Positions 36,601 to 51,450 of a stretch of DNA of 64,000 nucleotides are shown piece after piece. Both the position numbers and the translations under genes were made by a program. Source of the DNA: Deltaproteobacteria bacterium (GTDB taxonomy: Bacteria; Desulfobacterota; Desulfobulbia; Desulfobulbales; Desulfurivibrionaceae); assembly GCA_013349285.1 (NCBI GenBank), contig DUZU01000006.1, positions 1 to 64,000 of the forward strand, in the 5' to 3' direction. The notes under the pieces were generated by a model. That model saw only the letters and a program-made list of their open reading frames with translations. It searched no databases and had not been told where the DNA came from. Positions within the stretch are counted from its first letter, which is position 1, and each line of letters starts with the position of its first letter.

Positions 36601-36710
36601 AATATATGGCCGCCGGGATGACCGACTACCTGACCAAGCCCATCGACATTGATAAGCTTTGTGCTTGTTTAAGGAAATGGACCATACAGGAGAACGCGGC
36701 AAATGAATAA
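33684..36710 (+). CDS. Hybrid sensor kinase: 7TMR-DISM sensor, HisKA, HATPase, degenerate REC, canonical REC
   Basis: Seven-TM block after a periplasmic DISMED2-like domain; SHEIRTPMNAILGMANLA; GGTGLGLAISRQIVNLMGG; KILIVEDDEVNQQVSSHLL...DAIIMDIYMPVMDG. Confidence 0.93.
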   Translation: MITLNTAAKCYNRVAETCFSAPDACLIKLILFILFFIAQPVAAAPSILQITQDRNEYSLGRHLDLLEDVGRQLTIEEITSPLHRANFSPSSWETPNFGFTSSAIWARFTLANNQAEAIDYFLEIKYPLLDHIDLYTPDNSGNFIVTKGGDYAPFGERMISYRNIIFPIQLDAGQQKTFYLRCETSSTLNLPLSLHSPAGLVKKINLEQTLLGLYYGILLVMMIYNLFIYLGLRDTSYLYYVLFVFSYMLFQLSLNGMAFEYFWPNLIWWANSSTPLLIFIAYIFATQFARTILDTEKNVPTIDKILQNCIVLAVTGSLASLVFDYATSIRLATMFSLTVFIHIFAGFKCMVQGYHPARYYFCAWSISLMGVTCYALKSLGILPYTFLTQWGMQIGSAWEVILLSMALANRFHLTNNENKEILLSYSSRLEETHRKLEESYIKLEDFNAELENIVRERTADLTSLNENLAHEVEKRKIAEEKAEAASRAKSQFLASMSHEIRTPMNAILGMANLAAKTANTPKLQQYINIIMESGNSLLNLINDILDFSKIEAGRLDIERINFDLFETLDSLADMFSRQIYQKGLELIVIVEPNVPGAVIGDPLRLRQVLVNLINNAIKFTDKGEIVIKVSEVGGNPNKTLLNFSVHDTGSGINHKQIKKLFGEYVQADSSVTRVYGGTGLGLAISRQIVNLMGGDITAESIEGRGSTFRFTIKLSVQPTERQQQFRLPAAYSDTEIILAENHPALRQAITKMLAGFGCRIKEITGKEELDTSLSSPALPLVIIDLDHMLPLVDKARIMATLQLRQAQQQQTNIIVLSAPTTDISLKKMALPQSIELLSKPIKQSELFTLLCSKITGASPEKNSSPTRSTQPISLSDLGRGLANKKILIVEDDEVNQQVSSHLLTNMGILVDITNNGQEALDILKTKSYDAIIMDIYMPVMDGLDATRAIRNTLSLDIPVIALTANAMKEDKEKYMAAGMTDYLTKPIDIDKLCACLRKWTIQENAANE

Positions 36711-41290: not shown

Positions 41291-42157
41291 ATGAACTCAC
41301 CTGCCGCCAAACTCAGAGAAATTCTGGCCAGACCGGGCCTGCACCTGATGCCCTGCTGCTTTGACGCGCTTTCCGCCAAATTGATAGAACAGGCCGGGTT
41401 CGACCTCACCTTCATGAGCGGCTTTGCGGTGTCGGCCACCCGGCTCGGGCTTCCCGACACCGGGTTGATCTCCTACGGCGAGATGGTGAACCATGGCCGC
41501 AATATCACCGCCGCCGTCTCCATTCCAGTGCTCGGGGACGGCGACACCGGCTACGGCAACGCCCTCAATGTCAAGCGAACGGTGCACGGATACGCCCAGG
41601 CCGGTTTCGCCTGCGTGATGATCGAAGACCAGGTCGCCCCAAAGCGCTGCGGCCATACCGAAGGCAAAGAGGTGGTGGACCGGCAAGAGGCCCGGCAACG
41701 GGTTCGGGCGGCGGTCGATGCGCGGGAGGAAGGGGCGGATATTCTGATCATGGCCCGCACCGATGCCCGGGCCGGCCATGGCTTTGCCGAGGCCCTGACC
41801 CGAGCCCAAGAATTCGCCGAGACAGGGGCGGATATTGTATTTCTGGAGGCTCCCCAAAGCGAAGAGGAGCTGCGCACCTTCTGCCATAAAACCCCGGCGC
41901 CCACCATGGCCAACATGCTGGAGAACGGCAAAACCCCGCTGCTGCCGCCGGAGACCCTTGCCCAGATGGGCTTTAAGATCGCGGCCTACCCTTTAACCCT
42001 GCTCAACGCGTCCATCTTTGCCATGCAACAGGCCCTGGCCGCACTCAAACAAGGGGGCTCCCCGGAGCTGGGACTCGACTTTAAAGAACTGCGCCGCATT
42101 GTCGGCTTTGAAGAGTATTACGCCGAAGAAAAAAGATACAAAAAAGGTTCTCAATAA
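41291..42157 (+). CDS. Isocitrate lyase/PEP mutase superfamily protein (methylisocitrate-lyase- or oxaloacetate-decarboxylase-like)
   Basis: CCFDALSAKLIEQAGFDLTFMSGFAVSATRLGLPDTGLIS...DGDTGYGNALNVKRTV...IEDQVAPKRCGH...IMARTDARAGHGF. Confidence 0.9.
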   Translation: MNSPAAKLREILARPGLHLMPCCFDALSAKLIEQAGFDLTFMSGFAVSATRLGLPDTGLISYGEMVNHGRNITAAVSIPVLGDGDTGYGNALNVKRTVHGYAQAGFACVMIEDQVAPKRCGHTEGKEVVDRQEARQRVRAAVDAREEGADILIMARTDARAGHGFAEALTRAQEFAETGADIVFLEAPQSEEELRTFCHKTPAPTMANMLENGKTPLLPPETLAQMGFKIAAYPLTLLNASIFAMQQALAALKQGGSPELGLDFKELRRIVGFEEYYAEEKRYKKGSQ

Positions 42158-42209: not shown

Positions 42210-42935
42210 ATGGCCAAAGACGAAATTTTTAAATCAGAAAAAAGCATTGCTGAAGACTTCCGCTTTACCGCCCAGGTGGCCGAGGTCTTTGACGACATGC
42301 TGGCCCGCTCGGTTCCCAACTACCAGCAAGTTATCTCCATGAGCGCCCAGATCTTGAGCAAATTCCTCAAGCCGGGCGACACGGTCTATGACCTGGGCTG
42401 CTCAACCGGCGCCACCCTGCTGGAGCTGGCCAGGCAGCTGGGCGAACTTGATCTCAAATTCTGCGGCATCGATAATTCGCCGGCCATGATCAGCAAGGCC
42501 GTTCTCAAGGCGGAGATCTACTCGAAAAAAGAGCAGGTCCGTTTTATGGAGCAGGACATCACCGAGGCGGACATCAGCGGCGCCGGGGCGATCATCCTCA
42601 ACTATACCCTGCAGTTCATCCGGCCCATGCTCCGCCTTGAATTTCTCAAAAAAGTCCACCGCGCCCTCAAACCGGGGGGGGTCCTCATCCTGAGCGAAAA
42701 GATCATCTCCCACGACCCGCAACTCAACCGGGCTTTTATTGATTTCTATTATAAGTTCAAACGAGAACAGGGCTATTCGGAAATCGAGATCAGCAAAAAA
42801 CGCGAGGCCCTAGAAAACGTCCTGATCCCATTTTCCAGTGCCGAAAACCGCAAACTGCTTAAAGAGGCGGGTTTCTCAAGCATTGAGCCTTTTTTTCAAT
42901 GGTTCAACTTCTCCTCTTTTGTGGCGGTAAAATAA
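42210..42935 (+). CDS. cmoA: Carboxy-S-adenosyl-L-methionine synthase
   Basis: MAKDEIFKSEKSIAEDFRFTAQVAEVFDDMLARSVPNY...VYDLGCSTGATLLELARQL...GIDNSPAMISKA. Internal ATG at 42210 preferred over the track start at 42018. Confidence 0.93.
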   Translation: MAKDEIFKSEKSIAEDFRFTAQVAEVFDDMLARSVPNYQQVISMSAQILSKFLKPGDTVYDLGCSTGATLLELARQLGELDLKFCGIDNSPAMISKAVLKAEIYSKKEQVRFMEQDITEADISGAGAIILNYTLQFIRPMLRLEFLKKVHRALKPGGVLILSEKIISHDPQLNRAFIDFYYKFKREQGYSEIEISKKREALENVLIPFSSAENRKLLKEAGFSSIEPFFQWFNFSSFVAVK

Positions 42936-43077: not shown

Positions 43078-43974
43078 ATGGCCCATAAAATTCTCTGGAT
43101 AGACGATGTCCCGGACCAGGTCAAAGAACCAGCCGAACAACTCCGCGATGCCGGCTACGAAGTAGTCCTGGTCGATACCATTACCGAGGGTGCGGAACTG
43201 ATCGCCACGAGCCCGGACCGGTTCCTGGCCGTTATTGTCGATTTGTTGATGCCCGGAGAAAGTTTCTGGGTTCAGAGCCCCAAGGGCCGTGAAATTTTGG
43301 AGACCCAACACGGCCTTAATGTCGGCATGGTTTTCGGCCGCTGGCTGCTCAGACATTGGCCGGAGCTCAAGGTGATCGGCGTTTCAATCAAGCTGGATCG
43401 CCATGACCAGCAAGTGGAGTGTTTCAAGAAAACCGGGGCCGGCTATTTTGACAAATACAGCCTTTACAACTCGCCCAACGACCTGCTGCTCCGCTTAAGC
43501 AGCCTGGCCGCCGCGGCGACCCCGCCCGGACTGCCCCTGCAAACCGTTATCATCCATGGCCGGGACCAAGGGGCCATAGCCGAATTGAGCAAGTTTCTCC
43601 AGACCCGACTCCACCTGCCCGCCCCACGGATTTTTCAGCAACAGCCAGAACAGGGCCAGCTGGACCATGAGTGGCCGCCGACAGCGGTGGAAACTCGCCC
43701 CCTGATCTTTGTCCTCCTGACCCGGGCCGACTTGGGATCGCCGCCAGCCGCCGGGGCTGAGGGGCCGGTGACAACTCTTCTGCCATTAATCTTTGCAGCA
43801 GGCTTCTGGGCCAGCCAGTGCCGCCCGAACAACGGCAGGGTGGTCGTTCTCCACCAAAACCTGGCGGAACAGCTGCCGGCCAAACTGCCCGGGGTGGAGC
43901 TGATCGATATCAGCCCGGGCCTTGACGCGGCCTTTGATCAACTCAACGAGGCCATAGCGCCCTCTCTGCGCTAA
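43078..43974 (+). CDS. Receiver (REC) domain fused to a CAP12/PF10137-like TIR-type domain
   Basis: REC: KILWIDDVPDQ...AVIVDLLMPG...GVSIK...GYFDKYS. C-terminal: TVIIHGRDQGAIAELSKFLQTRLHLPAPRIFQQQPEQGQ...PLIFVLLTRADLG...LIFAAGFWASQ, matching the remembered layout HGHD...LHEQPNQG...VVLLTPDDVG...FELGYF. Confidence 0.7.
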   Translation: MAHKILWIDDVPDQVKEPAEQLRDAGYEVVLVDTITEGAELIATSPDRFLAVIVDLLMPGESFWVQSPKGREILETQHGLNVGMVFGRWLLRHWPELKVIGVSIKLDRHDQQVECFKKTGAGYFDKYSLYNSPNDLLLRLSSLAAAATPPGLPLQTVIIHGRDQGAIAELSKFLQTRLHLPAPRIFQQQPEQGQLDHEWPPTAVETRPLIFVLLTRADLGSPPAAGAEGPVTTLLPLIFAAGFWASQCRPNNGRVVVLHQNLAEQLPAKLPGVELIDISPGLDAAFDQLNEAIAPSLR

Positions 43975-44033: not shown

Positions 44034-44741
44034 ATGTTCAACCGGGTTCAACCATCACGGGTCTCCTTGCTGCTGCTCTTGCTGGTGGCGCTTGGTTGGC
44101 AGAGCGCTGAGGCAGACAACCAGGCGGCCCGCCGCCAGGCCATGGTCGCCGGGATTAGGGATGAAGTCCGAGCCACCAGCCGCTACCTCGGCAGCAGAAC
44201 CCTGACCCCACAAGTGCTGGAGGCCATGCCACCGTTCCCCGCCATCAATTTGTAGCCGCCAACCTGCAGGCCTTAGCCTACCTCAACCAGCCCCTGCCCA
44301 TCGGCTACGGCCAGACCATTTCCCAGCCCTACATCGTAGCAATAATGACCAACCTCTTGCAGCTAGACCCTAAAGATACCGTCTTGGAAATCGGTACCGG
44401 CTCAGGCTATCAGGCCGCCATTCTCGGGGAAATAGCCGGCCGGGTTGATACCATGGAAATCATCGCCCCCCTGGCCAACCAGGCCAAAACCCGCCTGCAA
44501 CAGCTGCATTATACCAATATTGAGGTCCATATTGGTGACGGCCGCCGCCGATCACATCCTGCCACCACTGCTCATGCAGCTCAAGCCAGGCTGGCGGATG
44601 ATCATCCCGGTGGGCAGCCGCTTTATGGTCCAGCAACTCACCATGATCCAAAAAGACCAAGCGGGCAAGATCAGCAGTCGCAAGCTGCTGCCGGTCCGCT
44701 TCGTGCCGCTCACCGGCGATGCGTCGGCTGGTGCGCCATGA
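44034..44741 (+). pseudogene. pcm: Decayed protein-L-isoaspartate O-methyltransferase (frameshift + internal deletion)
   Basis: Three frames join into one PCMT: ...LGSRTLTPQVLEAM / VPRHQFVAANLQALAYLNQPLPIGYGQTISQPYIVAIMTNLLQLDPKDTVLEIGTGSGYQAAILGEIAGRVDTMEI...NIEVHIGDG / VTAAADHILPPLLMQLKPGWRMIIPVGSRFMVQQL...FVPLTGD. Confidence 0.88.
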
Positions 44742-44925
44742 GAAACCTCCCGTGCCCCCTCCCAGCCTGGCGGTGGCCCTGGTTTCCGCTACTGCCCTGG
44801 CCTTCGAGATATTACTGGTCCGCCTGTTTGCCATCATCCAATGTCACCATTTCGCCTACATGGTCATCAGCCTGGCCCTCTACAGCGCTGCCGCCTTCTG
44901 CTTTCCCACTCAAAAAAACGATTGA
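44719..44925 (+). pseudogene. Truncated N-terminal fragment of a polytopic membrane protein (fused MFS/spermidine-synthase-like)
   Basis: SLAVALVSATALAFEILLVRLFAIIQCHHFAYMVISLAL resembles the N-terminus of large SpeE-like membrane proteins, then stops after ~15 unrelated residues. Confidence 0.55.
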
Positions 44926-45012: not shown

Positions 45013-45972
45013 ATGGATTATCTTGACTTTCTTCATAGCGCAAACCGGCCGGCCATCAGACAACTGCGCCAGGAAACAGAAAGCCGCCTCGCGCAACCCA
45101 AGAAGGGCTTTCTGCGCTTCCGTGAGCCTTACGAGGCCATCCAGCACCTCCGGGCCAAATTCACCGACTTCTCCTCCGATGCGGTAACCATCGGCCAGGC
45201 CGACGAACTGAACCAAGCAGACCGGCAGCTGGTCTACGAGGCCATGCGCGCCTTCATGCCCTGGCGAAAAGGGCCCTTTAATATCTTCGGCATTGAGATC
45301 GATTCCGAATGGCAAAGCCAGCGCAAATGGAACCGAATCGCGCCGATGCTGCCCGATCTCTCCGGCAAGGTGATTGCCGACATCGGCTGCAACAACGGCT
45401 ATTACATGTTCCGCACCATCCCCCATCAGCCCAAAGCGGTGATCGGCTTTGAACCATTTCTCCAACATTACTACTGTTTCAACACCCTCAACCAGCTGGC
45501 CGGGGTCGACAACCTATTCATGGAAATGATGGGGGTAGAGCAGATCAATCTTTTCCCGGACTGCTTTGACCTGATCCTGTTGATGGGGATCATCTATCAC
45601 CGAATCTCGCCGGTGGAGATGCTGCGCGAGATCCGCGCGGCCCTGCGGCCCGGCGGCACCCTGATCCTCGAGAGCCAGGCCATCCCGGGCGATGAACCGG
45701 TGGCCCTCTTTCCGGAAAGCAGATACGCCAAGGTGCCGGGCACCTATTTTGTCCCCACCGCCGCCTGCCTTAAAAACTGGCTGACCAGGGTCGGCTTTGC
45801 AGAGGTGGAAATTTTCTGCTGCCACCCGATGAGCAACGAAGAACAGCGGCGCACCGACTGGATGACCTTCGAATCATACAGCGACTTTATCGATCCCACC
45901 AACCCGAGCCTGACCGTGGAAGGCTATCCCGCCCCTCTGCGCGTTTTTCTCAAGGCAACAAATCCCGGATGA
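45013..45972 (+). CDS. cmoB: tRNA U34 carboxymethyltransferase
   Basis: RKGPFNIFGIEIDSEWQSQRKWNRIAPMLPDLSGKVIADIGCNNGYYMFR...FEPFLQHYYCFN...MGIIYHRISPVEMLREI. Start MDYLDF at 45013. Confidence 0.94.
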   Translation: MDYLDFLHSANRPAIRQLRQETESRLAQPKKGFLRFREPYEAIQHLRAKFTDFSSDAVTIGQADELNQADRQLVYEAMRAFMPWRKGPFNIFGIEIDSEWQSQRKWNRIAPMLPDLSGKVIADIGCNNGYYMFRTIPHQPKAVIGFEPFLQHYYCFNTLNQLAGVDNLFMEMMGVEQINLFPDCFDLILLMGIIYHRISPVEMLREIRAALRPGGTLILESQAIPGDEPVALFPESRYAKVPGTYFVPTAACLKNWLTRVGFAEVEIFCCHPMSNEEQRRTDWMTFESYSDFIDPTNPSLTVEGYPAPLRVFLKATNPG

Positions 45973-49257: not shown

Positions 49258-51450
49258 ATGAATTTTAAAGATCTGACCATCAGAAAAAAACTCATCACGG
49301 CGCTGCTGCTCACCAGTGCAACCGCGGTCCTGATGTCCAGCCTTACCTTTTATCTGTTCATGATCGACCGGATCCAGAGCTCCTACCAGGAAAACTTGAC
49401 CAGTCTCACTAAGATTGTCAGCCATAATTGCCAGGCCGCCCTTGCCTTTAATATTCCGGAAGATGCGGAAATCGCCCTTCAATCTTTGCAAAACCGCACC
49501 TCCATCGCCTATGCCGCTATCCACGATAACCACGGCAAGCTGTTTACCGAATACCGCCAAGATAATCACCTGAAACCAGATCTAGACAACATGCTTCTCC
49601 TGCAACAAAACATCCTGCTTAACAACAGTGTGATCGGCACCCTTGCCATTTACGACACCATGCAGCCGATCAACGATACCCGGAAAATGATGATCACCAT
49701 CCAATTCATTGTCACTATCGTGGTCTTGGTTGCCGTTTATTTCTTGTCGGCCCTTCTGCAAAAATTGATTTCCGACCCCATCATCTCCCTGGCCGAGACA
49801 ACCAGGGTCATTACCGAAAACCATGACTATTCCGTGCGCGCCATCAAGGTGAGTAAAGATGAAGTCGGGGTTCTGGTTGATTCGTTTAATGCCATGCTCG
49901 TTCAAATTGAAAAAAGCGACTCTGCCCTTCGCTCCAGCGAAAGCCGTTTCCGCAATCTGGTGGACCAGGCGGTTGACTCTTTCTTCCTGCTCGATATGGC
50001 GGGCAATGTCCTGGACGTTAACCAGCGGGCCAGCGACAGTTTGGGATATCCGCGCAACGCCTTGCTCAACCTTACTTTTCGGGATTTCGACAATCTGGCC
50101 GCGGTTTCAGTGGAACGCGCAAAACCCTGGACCAACTCCCTGCCCGATCACCCGCTCACCCAGGAAAGTGAGTTCAGACGCAAGGACGGCATGTTCTTCC
50201 CCGTGGAACTGCGGATGGGGCTATTGGACATTGACGGCGAACAGACCGTCATGGTCCTGGCCCGCGATATTTCGGAACGGAAAGAGGAACAGGCGGAAAA
50301 ACGCAAACTGGAAAATCAGCTGATCCAGTCCCAGAAGATGGAATCCATCGGCACCCTGGCCGGAGGAATAGCCCACGACTTCAACAATATCCTGACCGCG
50401 ATTCTCGGCTATGCGGAACTTGCCAAGCAGCAGGCCAACAGCGAAGGGCTGACCGTTAAGATTGACGCGATTACCAAAGCCGGCTGGCGAGCCCGGGAAC
50501 TGGTCAAACAGATCCTCACCTTTTCCCGGCAAACGGTAACGGAAAAAAGTGCCGTGGAAATCGGGCCGATCATCAAGGAAGCCCTGAAACTGCTCAGGGC
50601 ATCAATTCCGACGACCATTGAAATCAGAGAACATATCGATTCGCAATGCGGCACCGTTTTTGCCAACCCCACCCAGGTCCACCAGATATTGATGAACCTC
50701 TGCACCAACTCCTACCATGCCATGCGGGAAAAAGGCGGCGTGCTCGGCGTCACCCTCGACACCATGGAAATCAACACCATGGAAAAAGCAGCCTTTAACC
50801 TGGTGCCGGGACATTACCTGCGATTGATTGTCAGCGATAACGGTTCCGGCATGGATACCGCCACCCAGGAACGGGCGATGGACCCATATTTCACCACCAA
50901 ACCCAAGGGCGAAGGCACCGGCATGGGCCTGGCCATTGTCCACGGGATCGTCAAAAGCCTGGACGGCCACCTCTCCATCTACAGCGAGCCGGGCAAAGGA
51001 ACCACGGTCAAGGTCTACCTGCCAATCGTAAAAAAAGCAGAATCAGTCAGCGACCAATGGGAAGAACTCCCCATCCAGGGCGGCAATGAACATATCCTCA
51101 TCGTGGACGATGAATTGACCATCACCAACCTGGAAAAGGAAATGCTGGAGACGCTCGGTTATAAAATTTCGGTCTGCAACAACCCGAACGAGGCGTTGAG
51201 CAAATACCGGCAACAACCACAAGATTATGACCTGATAATCACCGACATGACCATGCCCCACATGACCGGGGCCGAGCTGGCCAAGGCAATTTTGGCGATT
51301 GAGCCCCACCAGCCCATTATCCTCTGCACCGGCTTCAGTGACATTATTGATGAAACAATTGCCCTCAAGCTCGGCATTAGAAAGTTCCTCACCAAACCGG
51401 TAACCATGGGGGAATTTTCCACCGCCATCAGGGCCGCTTTGCAAAAATAG
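49258..51450 (+). CDS. Hybrid histidine kinase (CHASE8-like periplasmic domain, HAMP, PAS, HisKA, HATPase, REC)
   Basis: SYQENLTSLTKIVSHNCQAALAFNIPEDAEIALQSL; GGIAHDFNNILTAILGYAEL; GEGTGMGLAIVHGIV; ILIVDDELTITNLEKEML...DLIITDMTMPHMTG. Confidence 0.93.
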   Translation: MNFKDLTIRKKLITALLLTSATAVLMSSLTFYLFMIDRIQSSYQENLTSLTKIVSHNCQAALAFNIPEDAEIALQSLQNRTSIAYAAIHDNHGKLFTEYRQDNHLKPDLDNMLLLQQNILLNNSVIGTLAIYDTMQPINDTRKMMITIQFIVTIVVLVAVYFLSALLQKLISDPIISLAETTRVITENHDYSVRAIKVSKDEVGVLVDSFNAMLVQIEKSDSALRSSESRFRNLVDQAVDSFFLLDMAGNVLDVNQRASDSLGYPRNALLNLTFRDFDNLAAVSVERAKPWTNSLPDHPLTQESEFRRKDGMFFPVELRMGLLDIDGEQTVMVLARDISERKEEQAEKRKLENQLIQSQKMESIGTLAGGIAHDFNNILTAILGYAELAKQQANSEGLTVKIDAITKAGWRARELVKQILTFSRQTVTEKSAVEIGPIIKEALKLLRASIPTTIEIREHIDSQCGTVFANPTQVHQILMNLCTNSYHAMREKGGVLGVTLDTMEINTMEKAAFNLVPGHYLRLIVSDNGSGMDTATQERAMDPYFTTKPKGEGTGMGLAIVHGIVKSLDGHLSIYSEPGKGTTVKVYLPIVKKAESVSDQWEELPIQGGNEHILIVDDELTITNLEKEMLETLGYKISVCNNPNEALSKYRQQPQDYDLIITDMTMPHMTGAELAKAILAIEPHQPIILCTGFSDIIDETIALKLGIRKFLTKPVTMGEFSTAIRAALQK

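Follow-up and report, generated by a model that had tools for sequence, protein, structure and literature searches.

A receiver–TIR fusion with a degenerate NAD pocket in a Desulfurivibrionaceae genome, and its kinase-linked relatives

Results

A REC-TIR Gene between cmoA and cmoB

The analysed window, a stretch of 64,000 nucleotides (positions 1 to 64,000 of contig DUZU01000006.1, assembly GCA_013349285.1, family Desulfurivibrionaceae), carries on its forward strand an open reading frame of 298 amino acids (43078..43974) whose coordinates and translation are exactly those of the first-pass annotation. It encodes a receiver (REC) domain (residues 1-143, 43078..43506) fused to a degenerate TIR domain of the CAP12/PF10137 type (residues 154-285, 43537..43932), the latter assigned by homology searches and an AF2 model. 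Full-length relatives with 40-42% identity were found in three genomes (G071, G049, and G039). The gene lies between a cmoA-like methyltransferase gene (42240..42935) and cmoB (45013..45972), both also on the forward strand. These two genes are separated by ~2 kb that hold the REC-TIR gene, a remnant of pcm (protein-L-isoaspartate methyltransferase; 44034..44741, forward strand) and a truncated fragment. In seven family relatives with cmoA at this position cmoA nearly abuts cmoB, and in most others yhbY adjoins cmoB, so the block in the window is specific to its lineage among the sampled relatives. The pcm remnant, recognised by reading of the sequence, is broken by at least two frame changes and represents either a pseudogene or assembly indels, and the truncated fragment (44740-44925) looks like the N-terminal piece of a membrane spermidine-synthase-like protein. 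An isocitrate lyase/PEP-mutase-like gene (41291-42157) is located between yhbY and cmoA, which are close to each other in seven relatives.

The nearest kinase genes end at position 36710 (6.4 kb upstream) and start at position 49258 (5.3 kb downstream) and both have receivers of their own, and no cyclase was recognised by reading among the neighbouring open reading frames; the earlier remark that neither a kinase nor a cyclase is adjacent is therefore right for the window. With no adjacent cyclase and a REC domain at its N-terminus, the gene lacks the arrangement of a CBASS or Pycsar effector. No Rfam match was found near the gene.

The Receiver Domain Retains the Response-Regulator Residues

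All key residues of a response regulator are present in the window protein: the acidic pair D9-D10 (43102..43107; D-N in G071, G049, and G039), the phospho-acceptor D55 (43240..43242), the switch residue Ser103 (43384..43386) and Lys126 (43453..43455), the last three being invariant in six out of six REC-TIR proteins. The domain is 49-50% identical to the other receivers of its clade. The description of the receiver as intact thus holds for these residues but not for the Pfam score, since the match to PF00072 (E 2e-4, 22 bits) stays below the gathering score of 30.2 and the domain contains a divergent insertion at about residues 61-82. The receivers of the kinase-linked REC-TIR proteins described below score above this cut-off.

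The Second Domain Is a TIR Domain with a Replaced NAD Pocket

The second domain can be assigned to the CAP12/PF10137-type TIR domains on the basis of its relatives and profiles, although Pfam itself is silent: PF10137 gave no hit in the window protein. When plasmids were searched by tblastn with the complete protein, Rhizobium/Sinorhizobium genes annotated as encoding a nucleotide-binding protein were identified at E 1e-6, with 33% identity across residues 155-281, and two of these rhizobial plasmid TIR proteins match PF10137 at about 1e-40 in full length. Among full-length relatives the closest is that of G071, a genome of the same order (41% identity over the whole length); it matches PF10137 at 4e-18 (65.9 bits). 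In addition, a profile built only from degenerate members (window, G049, and G039) was aligned by hhalign to seven intact TIR domains from viral contigs (97.7% probability, E 1.7e-12). An AF2 model of the TIR domain from a 40-row alignment, which excluded the relatives retrieved by genome search, reached a pLDDT of 83.6 (78 in an earlier model with eight sequences), and its best match among 350,542 PDB chains was the TIR-STING chain 9lmq_B (E 1.3e-3, probability 1.00, TM 0.53), a result that is supportive only because no fold match reached E 0.001 and a TIR-rich alignment biases the modelling. An alignment that mixed REC with TIR sequences was left out because its REC rows had been placed on the TIR domain. 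Genome contigs yielded no relatives in two scans that used the complete protein and its TIR half as queries, and searches of viral contigs with the window-clade alignment or a single intact TIR as query returned nothing or one locus. The proposed PF10137-like TIR fold is thereby borne out, and the C-terminal motifs quoted for it (IIHGRDQ, FVLLTRADLG, and LIFAAGFW) are all found in the protein, which keeps the HGxD motif and the overall fold.

The NAD pocket of SfSTING is formed by S10, R78, N80, the catalytic E84 and D110 of the dimer mate (PMC9402430). These positions were mapped by a HMMER alignment of an intact REC-TIR protein to SfSTING (7un8), in which R-D-N-V-V-F-E is placed against R-Q-N-V-I-F-E and D110 is reached through TDLDG (TDLSG in SfSTING). 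L234 and P236 (43777..43785) take the places of the Arg and Asn that correspond to R78 and N80, A240 (43795..43797) that of the catalytic Glu of the R-x-N-x-x-x-E motif, and K269 (43882..43884) that of the dimer-mate Asp, so that all four pocket residues R78, N80, E84, and D110 are replaced in the window. Among intact TIR domains from viral contigs, 39 out of 39 have R, N, and E, a count that the search pattern partly builds in, while the fourth position is D in 37 out of 39 and N in the other two. The reading of FELG as FAAG in the first-pass annotation is correct in that Ala240 occupies the Glu position and aligns with E84. A displaced catalytic Glu was sought in the modelled helix alpha-C (residues 234-251), which contains no acidic residue at all and therefore has none to offer. 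NAD cleavage by the window copy is unlikely; the suggestion that the domain is non-catalytic is strengthened by the loss of four pocket residues instead of one. Since the ribose- and phosphate-binding R78 and N80 are also gone, nothing here favours the suggestion of a nucleotide sensor.

Pocket Residues in the Window Clade

REC-TIR architectures were surveyed in the order for the window clade and in a phylum sample for more distant fusions. Among the 258 genomes of the order, full-length REC-TIR proteins of the window clade are present in four (the window genome, G071, G049, and G039) and a fifth genome (G064) contains the gene as two fragments at contig ends. No other genome of the window's family has a REC-TIR gene. 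The four pocket positions read R N E D in G071, R A E K in G049, R A Q R in G039, and L P A K in the window, and in the G064 fragment the first three positions are R A E. The change from Glu to Ala is consequently not a fixed trait of the family, as E is present in G071, G049, and G064 and Q in G039. The series looks like a graded loss of the pocket with the window as its most extreme member.

None of the four full-length members (window, G071, G049, and G039) has a kinase gene beside the REC-TIR gene or a dedicated two-component arrangement. In genus g19 the REC-TIR gene overlaps a REC-REC-GGDEF diguanylate cyclase gene tail to tail (L033:5169-7380, L034:6406-8554). This cyclase was rejected as a general partner since the orientation is convergent and neither the window genome nor G071 contains a match at E 1e-60. 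Four TIR_2 matches are located within 12 kb in G039 (C138:37699-49613; L196, L198, L199, and L200), possibly a defence island.

Intact REC-TIR Proteins Encoded with a Histidine Kinase

Across 395 sampled genomes from the phylum, PF10137 has 28 matches in 27 genomes, and the only REC fusions recognised among them (a few open reading frames being misread) are two more distant REC-TIR proteins, in G471 and G479. Both match PF10137 strongly (6e-31 and 9e-32) and keep all four pocket residues. In both genomes a HisKA-HATPase histidine kinase, a free-standing receiver and the REC-TIR protein are encoded in overlapping open reading frames (L052:1769-3805, L053:4227-6343), a dedicated two-component arrangement, and the two kinases are 44% identical to each other. 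The absence of an adjacent kinase is thus true of the window clade but specific to it. No close relative of these kinases was found in the window genome or the clade, where the best matches have E values of 3e-24 to 2e-20 (true ones ≤1e-150); judged by its score, the best match in the window genome (E 3e-24) is no more than a generic kinase.

The surroundings of the G471 operon include a gene of the AbiV abortive-infection family (PF18728, 4e-19; L053:991-1743) and transposase-like open reading frames, and the intact REC-TIR proteins match the PADLOC model PDC-S35, a candidate defence family, over the TIR part (3e-46). The intact members would most likely be kinase-gated TIR effectors, with a putative role in defence. 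No description of REC-TIR or kinase-linked TIR systems was found in the open-access literature. The intact pocket and the shared operon of histidine kinase, receiver and REC-TIR protein suggest a class of TIR systems under kinase control that has been little described. The earlier proposal of a disarmed effector fits such a family history, because intact REC-TIR proteins with a kinase of their own exist.

Selection, Rates, and the Possibility of Decay

Within the window clade the receivers are 43-50% identical and the TIR domains 31-38% (with the exception of the close pair G049/G039, 73% and 69%), whereas the pattern is inverted in the G471/G479 pair (REC 24%, TIR 55%), whose receivers are 19-25% identical to that of the window. 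Branch lengths under LG+G4 are 0.42 (REC) and 1.8 (TIR) for the window and 0.65 (REC) and 0.89 (TIR) for G071, and the TIR half of the window protein thus appears strongly accelerated, by relaxation or by a new role. In genus g19 purifying selection acts on the degenerate TIR domain (dN/dS about 0.17), a measurement made in that genus only, the window copy being without a close relative: 127 codons compared between G049 and G064 gave a dN of 0.055 and a dS of 0.33 (ratio 0.17, Fisher p 7e-8), and the G049/G039 pair gave ratios of 0.14 (TIR) and 0.19 (REC). The 63-codon N-terminal piece of G064, with a dN/dS of 1.2 from very few changes, was left out. A TIR domain without N80 and D110 is therefore maintained in g19, and a pseudo-TIR can be functional. 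In this genus R78 persists, as does E84 in G049 and G064, and what selection preserves may therefore be in part a residual activity.

These data bear on a serious, if somewhat unlikely, rival explanation, according to which decay is in progress and the window holds an orphaned REC-TIR gene that has lost kinase and activity and is no longer selected here, its reading frame not yet broken. The length of the TIR branch relative to the REC branch, the loss of all four pocket residues, the restriction of the gene to a single genome of its family and its position in the cmoA-cmoB block alongside a truncated fragment and a disrupted pcm are consistent with decay. However, the frame is open across 298 codons, the key receiver residues are all kept on a REC branch that is shorter than that of G071, the codon-position GC of the TIR half resembles that of the neighbouring genes, and degenerate TIR domains are under purifying selection in g19. 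We lean towards reading the window gene as an orphan response regulator with a pseudo-TIR output, which would act by assembly or binding and not by NAD cleavage.

Discussion

The known triggers of TIR immune effectors are cyclic nucleotides or direct sensors. If the kinase-linked state came first, REC-TIR proteins probably originated as effectors under the control of a dedicated histidine kinase. Phosphorylation of the receiver would alter its dimer state and bring the TIR domains together, which would make them NADases in the manner of other CAP12-type TIR domains, whose NADase activity is turned on by assembly (PMC9402430). The window clade would then have been left without a dedicated kinase, and its TIR pocket would have eroded in grades while the receiver was conserved: complete in G071, partial in G049 and G064, without the Glu in G039 and without all four residues in the window. 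Since the receiver chemistry is kept and the TIR chemistry is lost, any output of the window protein must consist in assembly or binding. Phosphorylation, by other kinases of the cell or by a small phosphodonor, most likely still elicits a response from the protein, whose pseudo-TIR domain would then engage in regulated self-association or the binding of a partner.

A different role for the receiver, in which it would serve a conflict system as a switch responding to nucleotides or ligands and not as a phospho-acceptor, is improbable. Receivers independent of histidine kinases have been proposed for some MoxR-vWA ternary systems (PMC8195603) and would agree with the missing adjacent kinase in four out of four full-length clade members, but D55, S103, and K126 are invariant in all six REC-TIR proteins, the distant members are tied to a kinase, and about 20 other kinase matches in the window genome could serve. 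It is very improbable that a rearranged active site still makes the window protein a NADase or a related glycosidase: the conserved HGxD motif and fold would permit this, but helix alpha-C has no acids and the counterparts of R78, N80, and D110 are replaced as well as the Glu. Least credible is a dominant-negative effect on a second TIR protein of the cell: CAP12 TIR domains do act as assemblies that a dead subunit could poison (PMC9402430), but in the window genome (89% complete) neither a PF10137 protein nor an above-threshold TIR_2 match is present.

The reading of the window gene as a phosphorylation-responsive regulator with a pseudo-TIR output can be extended, tentatively, to the whole family. 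REC-TIR proteins could represent an immune-type class in which a two-component phosphorelay takes the place of a cyclic nucleotide in gating a CAP12-type TIR NADase, with one branch, to which the window protein belongs, that has kept the pseudoenzyme for signalling by assembly only. If true, the operon of histidine kinase, receiver and REC-TIR protein would tie NAD-depleting immunity to two-component signalling. The stepwise erosion of the active site, together with a conserved receiver and the selection seen in g19, provides a natural series on TIR function without catalysis.

The closest known systems share parts of this architecture. The CAP12/TIR-STING proteins (SfSTING, 7un8; 9lmq) have the PF10137-type TIR fold and motif order in common with the window protein, which differs in having an N-terminal receiver in place of the STING domain, a replaced pocket and no CD-NTase beside it. 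The Pycsar effector PycTIR belongs to the same Pfam TIR family and its PADLOC model is matched by the intact REC-TIR proteins, but no cyclase is located beside the window gene and the receiver sits where PycTIR has its sensor. PDC-S35 matches the window protein only at E 0.027, and its match to the intact REC-TIR proteins leaves the receiver uncovered. The operons of G471 and G479 share the domain order and the residues D55, S103, and K126 with the window gene, but they encode an intact TIR pocket and, in overlapping open reading frames, a dedicated kinase and receiver.
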